A DNA stretch of 48,722 nt from a virus: IMG/VR virus record IMGVR_UViG_3300036766_001189, positions 1-48,722 of that record. The stretch is one strand, 5' to 3'. The translations under genes and the position numbers were made by a program. Under the pieces are notes generated by a model that saw only the letters and a list, made by a program, of their open reading frames with translations, searched no databases and had not been told where the DNA came from. Shown here piece after piece: positions 13,223 through 47,812 of this stretch; within the stretch, counting starts at the first letter, position 1, and each line of letters opens with the position of its first letter.

Positions 13223-13822
13223 GTGGCTGGACGGATCATCCAGATGCTCGGGGCGGCGCCCAACCTGGCGCTGACCCCGGACATCGGGGCGGAGCGGTGG
13301 TGCTTCAACAACCCGCGGGCCTATCGGGCCAAGGGGCTTCCCGCGGCGCTCACCACCTGGACGCGGTGGTTCAACCTGCATTCCACGGAGCACATCTACC
13401 GGACGTATCCCTCGTGGTGGGCGCAGACACATCGGGAGGATCAGGGCAAGCCGGTGTTCATGCGGGATGCGGACCTGCGGACCCCGGGCCAGGTGGCGTT
13501 TCCGGGGCAGAGGCTCCTGGACTGGTGTGGGACGCGATTCTTCACGTTCTCGCTTCCATGGGCCTTGGTGCTGGCGTGGTATGAACATACGCATGGCCAG
13601 CCGGTTGACCGAATCGACCTGTGGGGGTTCGAGTTGCGCCGGACGTGGCAGCACGCATTCGAACGACCGTGTTGCGCCTACTGGGTAGAGCGGATGCGAG
13701 CCGCGGGTATTGAGGTGTGGGTGCCTCCGGGCGTGGAGTTTGGTGAGCCGGGAGACCCGACGACGTATGTCGGCCCTCTCTATGGGTACGAGACAACGAA
13801 ACCGGTGGTCGTGCTGACATGA
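13223..13822 (+). CDS. Tandem family member 1 (unknown function, Rossmann-like pattern)
   Basis: 199 residues from GTG 13223, one base after the previous stop. First of four adjacent genes sharing the same order of motifs: a GAERWCFNN block near residue 22, WTRWFNLHS near residue 45, a DRIDLWG strand near residue 130, a YWVERMRAAGIEV helix-strand near residue 152 and a C-terminal GPLYGYET. The strand-Gly and helix-Gly-Ile-Glu-Val spacing resembles Rossmann-type proteins such as DUF115-like or sialyltransferase-like enzymes. That is a fold guess; no catalytic residues can be named. Confidence 0.75.
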   Translation: MAGRIIQMLGAAPNLALTPDIGAERWCFNNPRAYRAKGLPAALTTWTRWFNLHSTEHIYRTYPSWWAQTHREDQGKPVFMRDADLRTPGQVAFPGQRLLDWCGTRFFTFSLPWALVLAWYEHTHGQPVDRIDLWGFELRRTWQHAFERPCCAYWVERMRAAGIEVWVPPGVEFGEPGDPTTYVGPLYGYETTKPVVVLT

Positions 13823-14406
13823 GGGTCGTGCGCCTCTACGGCGTGTCGCACAACCTCCCGCTGGCCCCGCGACGTCGGGCCGACGAGGAGGTCTGGTGCC
13901 TGAACTACCACCAGCGGTATCGGTTCACCTGCAAGCGGGTGCTCGGAGAGTGGACCCGGTGGTTCAATCTGCACAGCCCGTCGCACATGCAGCGCACCTA
14001 TCCCGAGGGGGTCGCGTGGTATCGGACGCAAACGAAGCCCATCTACCTCCAGGAGGTGGACCCGACCATCCCAGGAAGTGTCGCCTTCCCGCGCGAGGCG
14101 GTGCAGCGGTATTTCGGGGCGAACGGTCAGCCCCAACGCTACTTCACCTGCTCGAATGCGTGGCTCATGGCACTGGCGATTCTGGAGGGGTTCGACCGCA
14201 TCGAACTGTGGGGGCACCAGATGCAGAAGGGTGCGGAATACGCGGCGCAGCGCCCCTGCTTCTTCTACTGGATTGAGGAGGCGCGGCGGCGAGGCATCGA
14301 GGTGATCATCCCGCCCGCGTCGCTCGGAGGGCCGGACGCCTCCTACGGAGAGGCCGGCGACCCCACCACCTACACAGGTCCGTTGTATGGCTACGAAACC
14401 TCGTAA
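13819..14406 (+). CDS. Tandem family member 2
   Basis: 195 residues, ATGA overlap with member 1. Carries all family motifs: WCLNY near residue 26, WTRWFNLHS near residue 45, FDRIELWG near residue 128, YWIEEARRRGIEV and GDPTTYTGPLYGYETS at the end. The C-terminal GDPTTY-x-GPLYGYET block is nearly identical to member 1, so these two copies are closest to each other. The copies are otherwise strongly diverged, so the duplication is old or under diversifying selection. Confidence 0.75.
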   Translation: MRVVRLYGVSHNLPLAPRRRADEEVWCLNYHQRYRFTCKRVLGEWTRWFNLHSPSHMQRTYPEGVAWYRTQTKPIYLQEVDPTIPGSVAFPREAVQRYFGANGQPQRYFTCSNAWLMALAILEGFDRIELWGHQMQKGAEYAAQRPCFFYWIEEARRRGIEVIIPPASLGGPDASYGEAGDPTTYTGPLYGYETS

Positions 14407-14986
14407 GATCGTCCAGTTTATCGGCGGCTCGAGGGTGAACATCAAGGCCACCCCGGATAACGTCGCGCTGGGTGCCGAACGCTGGTGTGCGAACGACCCG
14501 CGCACCTACATGCGATTGGGGTTCAAGCCGGCCCTGAAGACGTGGACGCGGTGGTTCAACGTGCATAGCATGCGGCATATCCGCGAGCGGCACCCCAGCG
14601 CGATTCCGTGGTATCTGCGGCAGGATGGGTTCCGGCCGATCTACCTCCTGGAGGTGGATGATCGCATCCCCGGCTGTGTGCGCTTCCCTGGCCCGGAGTT
14701 GCAAGAGCATTTTCGAATCAGCGCCACGGAGCAGGAGACCTTCTTCACCCATCAGGCGGTGTGGATGATGGCGCTGGCGATCTACGAGCAGTTCGAGCGC
14801 ATCGACTTGTGTGGGTATGCGTTTGGACGCGGTGGGCTCGCAGGCCGGAAGTACGAATTCGAGCGGCCGGCCATGCACTACTGGATTGGGCGCGCCCGAC
14901 AAGCGGGGATCGAGGTGAACCTCCCCCCGGAGGCGCAGATGTGTCAGGCGGACTATCTGTATGGGTACGGAGGCCCACCCCTATGA
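14387..14986 (+). CDS. Tandem family member 3
   Basis: 199 residues; the start lies 20 bases inside member 2, an unusually deep overlap for this genome, though the ATG frame begins with a plausible Lys-rich leader. Motifs present: GAERWC near residue 29, WTRWFNVHS near residue 49, FERIDLCG near residue 138, YWIGRARQAGIEV near residue 166, and a shortened end, YLYGYGGPPL. The terminal GDPTTY block of members 1 and 2 is missing. Confidence 0.72.
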   Translation: MATKPRKIVQFIGGSRVNIKATPDNVALGAERWCANDPRTYMRLGFKPALKTWTRWFNVHSMRHIRERHPSAIPWYLRQDGFRPIYLLEVDDRIPGCVRFPGPELQEHFRISATEQETFFTHQAVWMMALAIYEQFERIDLCGYAFGRGGLAGRKYEFERPAMHYWIGRARQAGIEVNLPPEAQMCQADYLYGYGGPPL

Positions 14987-15603
14987 GGCTCGTGCAACTC
15001 ATGGGCGGCACCCCCACCCAGATCGCCTGTCCGCCGCGGCCCGAGGGCGCCCACCGCTGGGGCCTGAACAACCTCTATCGTGCCGCGATGGTGTATCAGC
15101 GCTTCCAGGGGTGGACGGAGTGGTTCGATCTCCACTCCACGGAGCACATCCAGGGGCGGCGCATCAAGGGCTACGGGTGGCTCTGCCAGCAGACGAAGCC
15201 GATCTACCGGTGGGTGGTGGATCCCGCCATGCCCAGCAGTGTGGCGTATCCGGCGACCCCGGTGCGGGCGGCGTTCGGCGGCACCCGGCTGTTCTGCTCG
15301 ACGCTGGATTGGATGCTCGCGCTGGCCATCTACCAGGAGTTTGAGCGCATCGAACTGTTCGGCTGGCGGATGAGTCACCCGGCGTATCAGCACCAGATCA
15401 GTAGTGCGAACTGGTGGATCGCGCAGGCGCAGGCGAGGGGCATCGAGGTGGCCGTGCGCGGACGGTCGATGCTGGCCACGCTGGACAATGTGGGGATGAC
15501 CACGCTGCGAGTACGCCCCGTGCCGGAGATCGTCATTCCGCCCGGGTGCTTGATGTACGGGCTCGAAACGACGGACCGCTCGAAACTCTACCACGCGGTG
15601 TAA
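14983..15603 (+). CDS. Tandem family member 4
   Basis: 206 residues from ATG 14983, ATGA overlap with member 3; the frame is open further upstream, but that part lies inside member 3. Motifs: HRWGLNN near residue 24, WTEWFDLHS near residue 44, FERIELFG near residue 122, RGIEV near residue 150, then an extra 25-residue loop before IPPGCLMYGLET. This is the most diverged copy: it lacks the Cys in the WC motif and has an Asp in place of Asn in WFNLHS. Confidence 0.72.
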   Translation: MRLVQLMGGTPTQIACPPRPEGAHRWGLNNLYRAAMVYQRFQGWTEWFDLHSTEHIQGRRIKGYGWLCQQTKPIYRWVVDPAMPSSVAYPATPVRAAFGGTRLFCSTLDWMLALAIYQEFERIELFGWRMSHPAYQHQISSANWWIAQAQARGIEVAVRGRSMLATLDNVGMTTLRVRPVPEIVIPPGCLMYGLETTDRSKLYHAV

Positions 15604-30904: not shown

Positions 30905-31440
30905 GCGCACTCTGTTGTGGATGCGACCCCTCCTGCAAAGGAGGCCCCCATTATTGCGAGGTACACACCGCGCCCTGCGCCGGGCTCCCAGTGGACGCGG
31001 CTACACGCAAGACCTACCCCATCGCAAGCGGCGTCCTTGGTTACTTCCCGAACGCCCTCGCGGTCATCTCGCACGTCAGTTACCGCGGCAACGAGCAGCA
31101 CAACCCCGGCCAGCCGCTCCATTGGGATCGGACCAAATCCACCGATGAGGCGGACGCCCTGATACGCCATTTCCTCCTCCGGGGCACCCTTGACACCGAC
31201 GGGCTCCGACACTCAGCAAAGATGGCGTGGCGGGCGCTGGCCCTCCTCCAGAAGGAAATAGAGGCGGAGGTCACCCGGGCGACGAACCAGGCGACCTCGC
31301 CGCCCCTTCGTGTCGTGGTCTGCCCGCAGACGGACGTGGCATGTACGTCCTCCTGTAGCGATCGAGAGGTCCGCGAGTGTCAGGGGTTCAAGATGCGGCG
31401 ACAGGATCAGCGGGGGCTGCCGCGGGAGATCGCCCGATGA
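30901..31440 (+). CDS. DUF5664 / MazZ-like dATP-dGTP diphosphohydrolase
   Basis: 179 residues. Residues about 38-120 carry the family block: ASGVLGYFPNAL, GNEQHNPGQPLHWDR-x-KSTDEAD and the HSAKMAWRALALLQKEIE helix. Pfam describes this as the N-terminal domain of dATP/dGTP diphosphohydrolase (MazZ of cyanophage S-2L), which turns dGTP into dGMP for Z-base synthesis. Cys clusters flank it (CCGCDPSC at 5-12; several Cys after residue 140). The family is also common in phages without Z DNA. ATGA-coupled to the DatZ-like gene. Confidence 0.85.
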   Translation: MSALCCGCDPSCKGGPHYCEVHTAPCAGLPVDAATRKTYPIASGVLGYFPNALAVISHVSYRGNEQHNPGQPLHWDRTKSTDEADALIRHFLLRGTLDTDGLRHSAKMAWRALALLQKEIEAEVTRATNQATSPPLRVVVCPQTDVACTSSCSDREVRECQGFKMRRQDQRGLPREIAR

Positions 31441-32501
31441 CCCTGATCTCGCACTCCTGGATCAAAACCTCCACCGGGCGACGGTTCGACCCCTTCTCCA
31501 TCGACCCGGATCAGATCATCCTGGAGGACATCGCGCAGGCCCTCTCGAACATCTGCCGATTCACGGGGCATTGCCGCGAGTTTTACTGCCCAACCGAGGA
31601 TCAGCGCATCCTGACCGCGGACTTGCGTTGGGTGGCCGCGGGGGATCTTCAGCAAAACGATCTCCTCCTCGGATGCGATGAACAACCAGTCAAAGCCAAC
31701 ACCGGGAGGCAATATCGTCCTTCTCGGGTGACTACTCGTCTCCCAATAAAACGACACGTCTGGCGATTGGAGTTGAGTGACGGATCGTGCGTCAAAAGTT
31801 CCGATGAACATCCGTGGCTCGCTTCTGGAAAAATATCTAACCCTCACAAGTGGTTCACAACCGAAGCCCTTGCCCGCGATGTACGGCACGGCCGAACGCG
31901 TTGGCTCCATCGTTTTTTCGATATCTGGGAGACCGGGTGGCTATCCCAACGACTCTTAGATACTTTCGTTCAGGCCCTCTTGGAGAATGCGTTTCGTAAA
32001 GAATTACGGAGTGTCGAAAAGGTACGAATTCAACGGGCCTACGACGAGGGAGAGCAGTGGGTGATCGGACTGGAAACCTCAGCACATACGTATTTCTCCG
32101 AGGGGTTCTGCGCGCACAACTCGGTGGCGGAACATGCCTACACCGTGTCGCTGTATTGCGACCCCGCCGACGCACTGGCCGGCCTCCTCCATGACGCGTC
32201 CGAAGCCTATCTCGCGGATGTCGCCCGCCCCATCAAGCACCACGCCGACATGGCGGCGTATCGCGCCATCGAAGCGAGTGTCGAGGCCGCGATCAACCGG
32301 AAGTTCGGCCTGCGCTACCCGAAGCCCGCCAGCGTCGAGGAGGCGGATAGCCGTCTCTGCATCACGGAGGCGCGGCAACTCCTCCCGGATGTGGATGAGT
32401 GGAACTGGCCCCACCCGCCGTATGAGGGGCTCACCATTGCGTGTCACCGCCCGCGGATCGCGAAGCGGATGTTCCTCGACCGCTACGCGGAGCTCACATA
32501 G
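31437..32501 (+). CDS. DatZ-like HD phosphohydrolase interrupted by an intein
   Basis: 354-residue precursor. Removing residues 51-228 leaves a 176-residue HD-domain protein, the length of cyanophage DatZ (about 175). H233 in SVAEH, H252-D253 in LLHDASEAYL and D304 are the expected metal ligands. DatZ-type enzymes dephosphorylate dATP to deoxyadenosine and keep A out of Z-DNA; YfbR-like relatives act on other deoxynucleotides. The intein splits the RFTGH-x4-Y / SVAEH active-site motif, so activity requires splicing. ATGA-coupled to the MazZ-like gene. A general dNTP phosphatase role is the alternative. Confidence 0.88.
   Translation: MTLISHSWIKTSTGRRFDPFSIDPDQIILEDIAQALSNICRFTGHCREFYCPTEDQRILTADLRWVAAGDLQQNDLLLGCDEQPVKANTGRQYRPSRVTTRLPIKRHVWRLELSDGSCVKSSDEHPWLASGKISNPHKWFTTEALARDVRHGRTRWLHRFFDIWETGWLSQRLLDTFVQALLENAFRKELRSVEKVRIQRAYDEGEQWVIGLETSAHTYFSEGFCAHNSVAEHAYTVSLYCDPADALAGLLHDASEAYLADVARPIKHHADMAAYRAIEASVEAAINRKFGLRYPKPASVEEADSRLCITEARQLLPDVDEWNWPHPPYEGLTIACHRPRIAKRMFLDRYAELT
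31587..32120 (+). other. Mini-intein (178 residues) in the DatZ-like protein
   Basis: Begins with Cys (residue 51 of the precursor) and the block-A pattern CPTEDQRILT-x-G DL. Block B contains SSDEHPWL with the conserved His, block F VIGLETSAHTYFSEGF, and the end is Ala-His-Asn followed by extein Ser. All splice-essential residues are present. It is too short for a LAGLIDADG or HNH homing endonuclease. G+C over 31681-31860 is 49% by count, against 70% in 32161-32220 of the extein, which suggests recent arrival. Confidence 0.92.
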
Positions 32502-32513: not shown

Positions 32514-32562
32514 AGAGAGGTGGGCACCCCCGCTCACCCTCTCCCGGAAGGCCCGTCTCGCC

Positions 32563-33198
32563 ATGCGCCGACCCCTCCTCGCGATCCCGCTGGTCACCCT
32601 CCTGTGGCTCCCCGTCTTGGCCGCTCCGCTCCCCTGGGAGCGCATCACGGCGCGCGTCCACCCCTCGATGGGCCGTATCACCATCACCCGACTCCCCACG
32701 GACGATCAGGCCCTGGTAACGGGGGACTGTTCGACCTTCGCGATTGATGGCGTACGACACTACTACCTGACCGCGGCGCACTGCCAGGGGGACGTGCTGG
32801 AGGTGGATGGCAAGTCGGCCGGCGTCGTCCTGGTGGATGCCACGCTCGACCTGCTGGTGCTGCGTGTCCCCGAAGGGAGACACCCTGCCCTCGCAAGTGG
32901 ACACCCCGTTCGGCAGGGGCAGGCGGTCATGGCGTATGGGTATGCGTTTGGGTGGACGACGATCTTCGCCAAAACGGGGGTCGTGGCTGTCCCGGATCTC
33001 CGCATCCCCCTGTTTGGGAACCGGAGCCTCACCCTGACGGATTTTGCCTTCATCGAGGGGATGTCTGGCGGGCCGGTGGTGGATGCTGAGGGGCGAGTCG
33101 TCTCGATGGTGCAGTCGTCGCACAGCAACGGTCTGGCGGGCCAGGGACCGTCGATTCAGGCGATTCTGGGGGCGACCGGAGCGTTCTGGGGGAGGTAG
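32563..33198 (+). CDS. Exported trypsin-like serine protease
   Basis: 211 residues. Residues 1-20 are a classic signal peptide (RR at 2-3, a Leu/Val core, LAA cleavage). The mature part has the chymotrypsin triad H73 (LTAAHC), D96 (TLDLLVL) and S168 (GMSGGPV). It should be secreted to the periplasm. Trypsin-like proteases with signal peptides are uncommon in lytic phages. It could degrade periplasmic or surface proteins during lysis or exclusion. Followed two bases later by another exported protein, probably a partner. Confidence 0.88.
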   Translation: MRRPLLAIPLVTLLWLPVLAAPLPWERITARVHPSMGRITITRLPTDDQALVTGDCSTFAIDGVRHYYLTAAHCQGDVLEVDGKSAGVVLVDATLDLLVLRVPEGRHPALASGHPVRQGQAVMAYGYAFGWTTIFAKTGVVAVPDLRIPLFGNRSLTLTDFAFIEGMSGGPVVDAEGRVVSMVQSSHSNGLAGQGPSIQAILGATGAFWGR

Positions 33199-34026: not shown

Positions 34027-34161
34027 TTACTCGGGCCAGACATCGTCAAACCACTCCTCCAACATCGACGCAATCACGAGCGCGCCTTGGATCGTCGCGA
34101 AGACGGCCACGATCCCGCCCACGATCATGAGCAGCCGCCAGAACTCCGCATCCGTGATCAT
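34027..34161 (-). CDS. 44-residue single-span membrane protein
   Basis: ATG 34161 overlaps the stop of the Dam gene (ATGA). One membrane helix (residues 8-32, LLMIVGGIVAVFATIQGALVI) is followed by an acidic tail (EEWFDDVWPE). No family known. Confidence 0.65.
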   Translation of the reverse strand: MITDAEFWRLLMIVGGIVAVFATIQGALVIASMLEEWFDDVWPE

Positions 34162-34649
34162 CGCAGCGCCTCCATCCACGTCCAGATCGCATCCCCCGGA
34201 CAGGTGAACCGACAGGGCTCATACACGAGGAGCGCGCAATCCTTCGGGTAGGGGTCGGTGGTGCCCACGAAGGTAAGCCGGCCGTTGAGGAACAGGATGT
34301 GCGCCTTCCGGTAGACCCAATCCCGCCACCAATTCGCGCCCGTGGACGCCGGCACGAGCACCACGACCCTCGCCCCGAGCAGGGACTCCTCGTAGGCTTT
34401 CTGCACCCACGGCGCGATACGGGCATAGGGCGGATTGAGCCACAACCACCCCGGGTGCCGATGCCACGGCTGGATCAGCGCGTCGTCCGCCTCGGTGAAA
34501 TGGCGTCCCCCAGGCACCACCGCATTCGCGTCCGTCGCGGCCAGATCCCACACGAGCGGCGCCCCGAGCCGCTGGTGGACCGCCTCTAGAAATACCCGCG
34601 GGGTGCCATAATCCTGACGGGAGCGGCCGGGTTTCTGTGTGGGCATCAT
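34158..34649 (-). CDS. dam: Phage-type DNA N6-adenine methyltransferase (Dam)
   Basis: 163 residues from ATG 34649, which overlaps the previous stop; AAAGGA lies about 10 bases upstream. DYGTP at 13-17, WDLAATDANAV around 34-44, TEADDAL around 52-58, the catalytic NPPY at 72-75 and a C-terminal PYPKDCALLVY match the phage Dam family (PF05869). It methylates adenine N6 in DNA, probably against host restriction. Adenine methylation would sit oddly with a Z-DNA genome and argues that adenine remains in this phage. Confidence 0.88.
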   Translation of the reverse strand: MMPTQKPGRSRQDYGTPRVFLEAVHQRLGAPLVWDLAATDANAVVPGGRHFTEADDALIQPWHRHPGWLWLNPPYARIAPWVQKAYEESLLGARVVVLVPASTGANWWRDWVYRKAHILFLNGRLTFVGTTDPYPKDCALLVYEPCRFTCPGDAIWTWMEALR

Positions 34650-34828
34650 GCGAGGTGAATCCTTTCGCACGTGGGGCAGTGACGCACCTCACCCTGATCA
34701 AATAGCGCCATCAAGGCCTCCGTGGTGAGCGGCTGCACCTCCAGGGAGAGACACCGGCCGCACCGGGTCGGGGTGGAGCGGCTCTCCATGACCCAGCTAC
34801 AGGCGGCACACTGGTAACCCGCGGTCAT
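34646..34828 (-). CDS. 60-residue multi-CxxC zinc-ribbon protein
   Basis: From ATG 34828, two bases after the polymerase stop. Three CxxC pairs (CAAC near 7, CGRC near 24, CPTC near 53) give one complete zinc ribbon and part of another. ATGA overlap with Dam. No known family; a DNA-replication accessory factor is possible from position. Confidence 0.7.
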   Translation of the reverse strand: MTAGYQCAACSWVMESRSTPTRCGRCLSLEVQPLTTEALMALFDQGEVRHCPTCERIHLA

Positions 34829-46777: not shown

Positions 46778-47812
46778 TCATGATCGGCCGGGTGACATTA
46801 CCCGCCGTTTATACCGCCCATCATAGCGTCGCGCATCCCGCGGCAGATCCCACTCTACCCGGAAGGTGCGCGCGAACGTCTCTAGATCCTCCGTGGTATC
46901 CTCTCGCCGTGCATGAAACCCATACTCCTCCAGTTCCTGCACGAGCGCCGCCCGATCAGCTTGTGCCCAGCTCTCGGGCCATGGCTGCCGGTCCTTCCCG
47001 GCATCCATCGACGTCCACGTGCGCCACACATCCACGCTCGGTGTGCGTTTGCAGAGCAGCGCATCCTCATCGATGTGGCACAACGCCGCCAGCAACTGGA
47101 GCGCATGATTGGTATCCACCGACTCGGTGTGCCCATGCGCCTCCGAGTACCCGATGCTCACGTTGGTGCACTCGGGCACCGTCCCGGCGTAATGCTCCGT
47201 GTCGGTGAACAGGCCATATTCAGATGGGGCATACTCCAGACCGTGCGCGTTCAACTGCTCGGCGAGACTGCGCGCGAACGTATCGCTTGCGGTGCGTCGG
47301 CCCATCTGATGTGTGATGACGTCGCCCGTGCCCTTACGGTCGAAGGCAATGGCAAATTTGATGTCCGAGAGCCACGGGGGATTTTGATCCGCGAGTGCCG
47401 ACGATCCAATGCATCCTTGCTCCTCGCCGTAATGAAAGACGTAGTGACCGGGCACCTTCGCACGAATCAGGTTGACCGCGAGCCACACCCCGACTGTATC
47501 ATCGGCCCCAAGGCAATTCTGTTTGCGCTTCTCCCGTCGCGCAAGGCTGAGGCGCCCGGTCTTATCACACCGGACACGCTGTCGGCCATCGCGCCAATGC
47601 ACCGTGTCGGTGTGGCAGGACCACAACACGGCGGAAGCGGTCCCGTCTGGGCGTGCGACGATCACGTGCAGGTTCCCATGCGCATCCTCTACCGCGCCCA
47701 GCGGATAGATCCAGCGGCCGCAGAACGCGCGATCGGTCGCACTCCCATGCGGACGCGCGTAGGTGTGCATCGCGATCAATTCCGATCGGTGTTGCTCGCG
47801 TTGGGTGATCAT
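46778..47812 (-). CDS. M20/M42-like zinc metallopeptidase
   Basis: 344 residues, ATG 47812 overlapping the previous stop. H67-x-D69 (CHTDTVH), GAD-D105, GEE at 129-131, D158 (AFDRKG) and a C-terminal His in SEAHGH give the complete two-zinc set of M20/M28-clan exopeptidases. There is no signal peptide, so it acts in the cytoplasm. Peptidases or deacylases of this type are unusual in phage early operons; possible substrates are peptides or acylated small molecules used in host defence or nutrition. Confidence 0.82.
   Translation of the reverse strand: MITQREQHRSELIAMHTYARPHGSATDRAFCGRWIYPLGAVEDAHGNLHVIVARPDGTASAVLWSCHTDTVHWRDGRQRVRCDKTGRLSLARREKRKQNCLGADDTVGVWLAVNLIRAKVPGHYVFHYGEEQGCIGSSALADQNPPWLSDIKFAIAFDRKGTGDVITHQMGRRTASDTFARSLAEQLNAHGLEYAPSEYGLFTDTEHYAGTVPECTNVSIGYSEAHGHTESVDTNHALQLLAALCHIDEDALLCKRTPSVDVWRTWTSMDAGKDRQPWPESWAQADRAALVQELEEYGFHARREDTTEDLETFARTFRVEWDLPRDARRYDGRYKRRVMSPGRS

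Follow-up and report, generated by a model that had tools for sequence, protein, structure and literature searches.

A probable cis-splicing mini-intein with a deleted endonuclease in a phage HD phosphohydrolase gene

The window analysed here is the whole 48,722-nucleotide stretch of IMG/VR virus record IMGVR_UViG_3300036766_001189, and it contains a class 1 intein within a gene for an HD phosphohydrolase. The complete reading, to which we assign a probability of about 0.93, is that of a phage HD phosphohydrolase gene carrying a class 1 cis-splicing mini-intein from which the endonuclease has been deleted while splicing has been kept.

The precursor and its splice junctions

The open reading frame at 31437-32501 (+) translates without a stop into a precursor of 354 residues. 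Its ATG shares bases with the stop codon of the preceding ORF (ATGA), and GGGAGA is found further 5'. Removal of the 178-residue intein leaves an extein of 176 residues once joined (Table 1). The set of class 1 residues is complete and comprises Cys1, the S-x-x-H motif of block B, the block F histidine, the penultimate histidine, the terminal asparagine and a serine at +1. An earlier note on this DNA, made from its letters, had recognised an intein in this ORF and had placed Cys51, S122-x-x-H125, H217, H227-N228 and S229. These placements were confirmed by residue checks, and the sizes that it gave for the intein and the joined extein are right.

Table 1. Features of the intein-containing HD phosphohydrolase gene (positions in the window).
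Feature	Positions	Strand	Basis and remarks
N-extein, HD phosphohydrolase	31437..31586	+	50 aa, ending in GHCREFY; aligns with intein-free homologues
Mini-intein, Cys1-Asn178 (precursor C51-N228, residues 51-228)	31587..32120	+	Leave-one-out profile, E=2.8e-54; Hint fold in the AF2 model
Cys1, block A nucleophile (precursor C51)	31587..31589	+	Residue check and alignment with relatives
Block B, S-D-E-H (precursor S122-H125)	31800..31811	+	Residue check and alignment
GWLSQ, what is left of GWLAG, with which the LAGLIDADG motif begins	31935..31949	+	Alignment with relatives; profile positions 121-204 absent
Block F, WVIGLETSAHTYF, including His217	32058..32096	+	Residue check and alignment
C-terminal splice junction, H227-N228/S229	32115..32123	+	Residue check
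C-extein, catalytic HD core (H233, H252-D253, E256, D261, K267, D304)	32121..32501	+	Alignment with homologues and residue check

The insertion site

Tyr50 and Ser229 flank the intein, which is inserted four residues ahead of the metal-binding His233, just before the SVAEH motif, as the earlier note had stated. In HD phosphohydrolases the histidine of this motif serves as the first metal ligand and, because it adjoins the insertion, the precursor can reasonably be taken as inactive until spliced. That note had also proposed looking for intein-free homologues with tyrosine and serine directly joined, and such forms were found: the homologues run FYSVAEH or FYCVAEH across the site, and a simple pattern for the joined FY[S/C]VAxH is matched by 71 of 80 sampled viral loci (70 with Ser, 1 with Cys).

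Thirteen groups of mycobacteriophage host proteins, many of them with insertions at active centres, are described in an intein survey whose text contains neither 'phosphohydrolase' nor 'HD domain' (PMC5050341). Of the papers retrieved by pairing intein with HD hydrolase or HD domain, which mention intein once, none reports such a case in its title or abstract. Among the matches listed, the matched stretches in the best 60 phage records span roughly 400-630 bp, which leaves no room for an intein, and a scan of genome contigs returned only a Planctomycetales homologue devoid of intein. The insertion site is probably unreported; the kind of element itself is well known.

Identification of the insert as an intein

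A profile built from eight relatives, with the window copy left out, retrieved the window intein with E=2.8e-54 in two blocks corresponding to profile positions 1-120 and 205-263, which bears out the intein call of the earlier note. When the 534 nucleotides of the insert were shuffled, the frame stayed open in just 2 of 2000 cases. None of the curated intein and Hint models in Pfam and NCBIfam scored the window copy above its cut-off, and the sole NCBIfam match was to an intein-containing radical SAM model (E=9e-6 with the whole precursor as query, 1.7e-4 with just the intein). In the profile searches that the earlier note had advised, the HD-family profile matched (PHROG_318) and the curated intein profiles remained below cut-off.

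Structure prediction of the precursor with AF2 (pLDDT 80, pTM 0.57) yielded a Hint fold at model residues 51-226 that matched many inteins with Z 11-13.6, the best being the splicing domain of the Mtu RecA mini-intein (Z 13.6, 2.7 Å over 132 residues). The remaining chain resembles Atu1052 (Z 21.8, 1.8 Å, 174 residues) with the Hint domain looped out. The model is weak at the junctions, where pLDDT falls below 50 (residues 44-49 and 221-226). The Ssp DnaB M86, Npu DnaB and Mtu RecA mini-inteins share with the window copy the Hint fold, predicted in the latter, and the class 1 residues (Z 12.9-13.6 to the model), and these constructs likewise have no endonuclease domain. They differ in being only ~15% identical to it and in residing in other host proteins, and the deletion in the window copy is a natural one.

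The failure of all curated Hint and intein models to reach cut-off could be taken to favour an ordinary inserted enzyme domain. Such a domain would have next to no chance of accounting for the rest of the data: homologues that contain the segment always display Cys1 and HN followed by S or C at its ends, at one residue site, in a patchy distribution and with an endonuclease within it; the majority of homologues do not have the segment; kindred inteins occur in phage terminase-like and portal genes and in a plasmid DNA polymerase; and the insert is predicted to adopt a Hint fold. The clean empty sites and the relatives in unrelated host proteins rule this reading out. A split intein or split gene was also considered, given that PHROG_21461 (52 aa) and PHROG_20276 both match the N-extein. 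It was dropped since each of these families also matches across the junction of the spliced extein and so provides no evidence of a split.

The insert also differs from its surroundings in base composition. The GC contrast reported by the earlier note was reproduced on recomputation, with 49.4% over 31681-31860 in the intein versus 70% over 32161-32220 in the extein. Over the entire intein, GC is 54.3% and GC3 is 0.567 (178 codons). In equal-length coding segments drawn from 37 other window ORFs (n=184), GC3 has a mean of 0.818, an SD of 0.06 and a minimum of 0.635; the intein thus lies under every native segment and is compositionally foreign.

The host enzyme

The joined extein matches PHROG_318, annotated as deoxyribonucleoside 5'-monophosphate phosphatase, in a single stretch with E=8e-60; with the unspliced precursor the match drops to E=2e-51 and its best stretch is restricted to the C-extein. 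The nearest solved structure, by sequence and by fold, is Atu1052 (2gz4), to which the family profile matches with 6e-26, and E. coli phage proteins of this family go by the names YfdR or HD hydrolase. The window extein belongs to this YfdR/Atu1052/PHROG_318 group. Nearly all of its members are free of the insertion, whereas that of the window is made as a splice precursor.

The metal ligands of an HD phosphohydrolase are present as H233, H252, D253 and D304. In DatZ, the metal ligands are H34, H66, D67 and D119, with E70, D75, P79, K81 and K116 as further residues (PMC8065100). The window protein has the same order (H233, H252, D253, E256, D261, P265, K267, D304), and the position of DatZ K116, mapped by spacing, is occupied by Glu301. 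With these DatZ-type residues in matching order, the enzyme looks catalytically complete once spliced.

The earlier note had called the enzyme DatZ-like and had linked it to dATP removal. The catalytic part of this comparison stands, as DatZ of S-2L and SH-Ab 15497 belongs to the same HD superfamily and its SVAEH, HD, E, D, P and K positions align with the window extein. As a specific identity, DatZ was set aside: SH-Ab 15497 DatZ reaches just 24 bits against the window family profile; phmmer and profile searches of the PDB with E up to 10 recovered no DatZ chain, a result compatible with kinship; and the best tblastn hit of SH-Ab 15497 PurZ in the window, from a record that may be a fragment, has E=0.5. 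The substrate-selecting residues of S-2L DatZ are W20 and I22. Placement with Atu1052/YfdR (PHROG_318), along with the failure to find PurZ in the window, does not point to dATP removal. The PHROG_318 annotation makes a dNMP phosphatase the better guess.

Several other genes of the window were noted. Directly 3' of the HD gene, 32539-33198 (+) encodes a trypsin-like serine protease (PF13365 Trypsin_2, E=1e-11; PHROG_9683 protease) whose N-terminus resembles a signal peptide. A DNA methyltransferase gene at 34158-34670 (-) (PHROG_111, E=1.8e-38) adjoins a PHROG_17 DNA polymerase gene, and an M28-family peptidase-like protein (PF04389, E=1.5e-7) is encoded at 46778-47812 (-). The structural gene region contains four tandem paralogous ORFs of ~195-280 aa at 13223-15603 (+), mutually 30-42% identical, the first of which has no Pfam match at E<=0.01.

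Same-site inteins and loss of the endonuclease

Searches of IMG/VR uncovered full-length inteins at the identical residue in six other viral lineages, which the earlier note had overlooked: L008 (also L001/L095), L096, L009 (L002/L100), L010, L011 with its near-copy L012, and L101. Each of these inteins measures 262-266 aa and has one match to the LAGLIDADG_3 family PF14528 (1.7e-6 to 3.6e-3) with a conserved DGEG, and across all carriers the +1 residue is Ser or Cys. Compared with them, the window copy is missing 84-88 aa, corresponding to profile positions 121-204, which constitute the endonuclease domain; it reads GWLSQ where the others read GWL(A/S)G, and Pfam finds no LAGLIDADG match in it. 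The view of the earlier note that the window intein has no homing endonuclease is therefore upheld.

The single-LAGLIDADG domain extends beyond this host gene: related inteins in a terminase-like protein (mycobacteriophage Pham3880) and in a Mycobacterium intracellulare plasmid DNA polymerase carry it too, and a Gordonia phage portal gene, once translated, contains a similar GWIAGFFDGEG segment. The mycobacteriophage C1 Pham3880-g terminase-like intein (Kelley et al. 2016, PMC5050341) is among the closest systems known. The full-length form L008 can be aligned with it along 100% of its length, with 34.5% identity, and both share Cys1, a single LAGLIDADG motif with DGEG and the terminal HN, which places them in the same intein family. 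The Pham3880-g intein differs from the window copy in its host protein and insertion site and in its size, ~269 aa including an endonuclease domain that the window copy does not have. In a reporter assay the Pham3880 intein splices with some precursor remaining (PMC5050341).

The presence of a homologous endonuclease in relatives' inteins that reside in other host proteins indicates that it is ancestral in the family and was lost in the window. Since only the endonuclease domain is missing and the GWLSQ stub is kept, the window copy is best seen as an endonuclease-deleted descendant. The converse polarity, with the mini form as ancestral, was ruled out on these grounds, the endonuclease of the other-host relatives occupying the same place. 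No close relatives of the mini form were found in these searches. Inteins in general are known to pass through a stage at which the endonuclease is lost.

Together with L103, L104 and L105, the six same-site lineages outline a family of phage and plasmid inteins of ~260-270 aa that carry a single LAGLIDADG motif where two are usual and whose host genes encode HD hydrolase, terminase-like, portal and DNA polymerase proteins. Their endonuclease could conceivably be homodimeric or half-size; the predicted structure of the domain has a confidence of 40-60 over much of the region. On another IMG/VR contig, a compact Hint-like segment of ~130 aa (CPTPDMKILL...DAHTYFCEGFLCHN; L102:3001-3390) is located close to the C-terminus of a long, unrelated protein.

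Horizontal spread

In each between-lineage comparison the inteins are more alike than their hosts, with 47-55% identity versus 29-42% for the exteins, in a table compiled before L096 and L101 were found. In an extein tree of 45 rows the carriers are scattered and 6 gains or losses are needed, at least 5 of them forced by supported branches, long branches making the placement of the window, L010 and L011 uncertain. The DNA of L008 is collinear with that of the intein-free L080, L082 and L085, about 72-88% identical around the gene and broken only at the intein. The greater likeness of the inteins, the scattered carriers and the clean empty sites together show that the element spread horizontally. 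A homing element that targets a conserved site would leave this pattern, and homing would most simply explain the spread.

Proposed history and fate of splicing

We propose that a phage-borne intein family of ~265 aa with one LAGLIDADG domain entered the conserved HD site horizontally, most simply by homing, and that the endonuclease was later deleted in frame in the window virus. The precursor is predicted to fold into two domains, with the Hint domain looped out and the HD domain complete apart from it. In the predicted splicing course, Cys1 would attack the Tyr50-Cys51 bond by an N-S shift, the ester would be transferred to Ser+1, Asn178 would cyclise with the assistance of the penultimate His, and Tyr50 would be joined to Ser229 to give the 176-aa active enzyme. 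Splicing would have been retained because the host enzyme needs it and its failure would cost the virus that enzyme. We infer that the window intein is functional in splicing and that selection maintains this function.

It might be argued that loss of the endonuclease left the mini-intein dead or crippled, in a decaying gene whose HD enzyme is not active. The low GC3 suggests a recent arrival with little time for testing, the C-terminal region is unlike that of all relatives (YFSEGFCAHN versus YFCEGFGAHN) and the extein branch is fairly long (1.79). We nevertheless deem this decay unlikely, for all catalytic splicing residues and all invariant extein residues are retained, the reading frame has no interruption, the deletion preserves it and no second HD gene copy was found within the window.

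Splicing might otherwise serve as a conditional switch, with redox, metal or host signals setting its timing and hence that of nucleotide hydrolysis. Location at an active centre has been argued to favour regulation (PMC5050341), and a redox trap would be chemically feasible, as Cys46 of the N-extein precedes Cys1 by five residues and Cys225 is close to the C-terminal junction. Homing into conserved DNA explains an active-site insertion equally well, Cys225 is missing in the other carriers and Cys46 is common among intein-free homologues. Conditional or redox-controlled splicing, which the earlier note had raised, is thus speculation, and a switch of this kind seems improbable to us. The further proposal that, at a site new to the literature searched, the mini-intein was kept after endonuclease loss as controlled splicing delays or gates the hydrolase during infection is one we consider very unlikely.

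Significance

With an endonuclease-deleted, splicing-competent element as the favoured reading, the list of intein hosts gains an enzyme of nucleotide metabolism, entered just before a metal-binding active-site motif. The 178-aa element is a candidate natural compact intein with Ser at +1. The viruses compared here provide a natural series at one site, from empty to occupied by a mobile single-LAGLIDADG intein and then by an endonuclease-free mini-intein, in which the later part of the homing cycle appears to have been caught across viruses.
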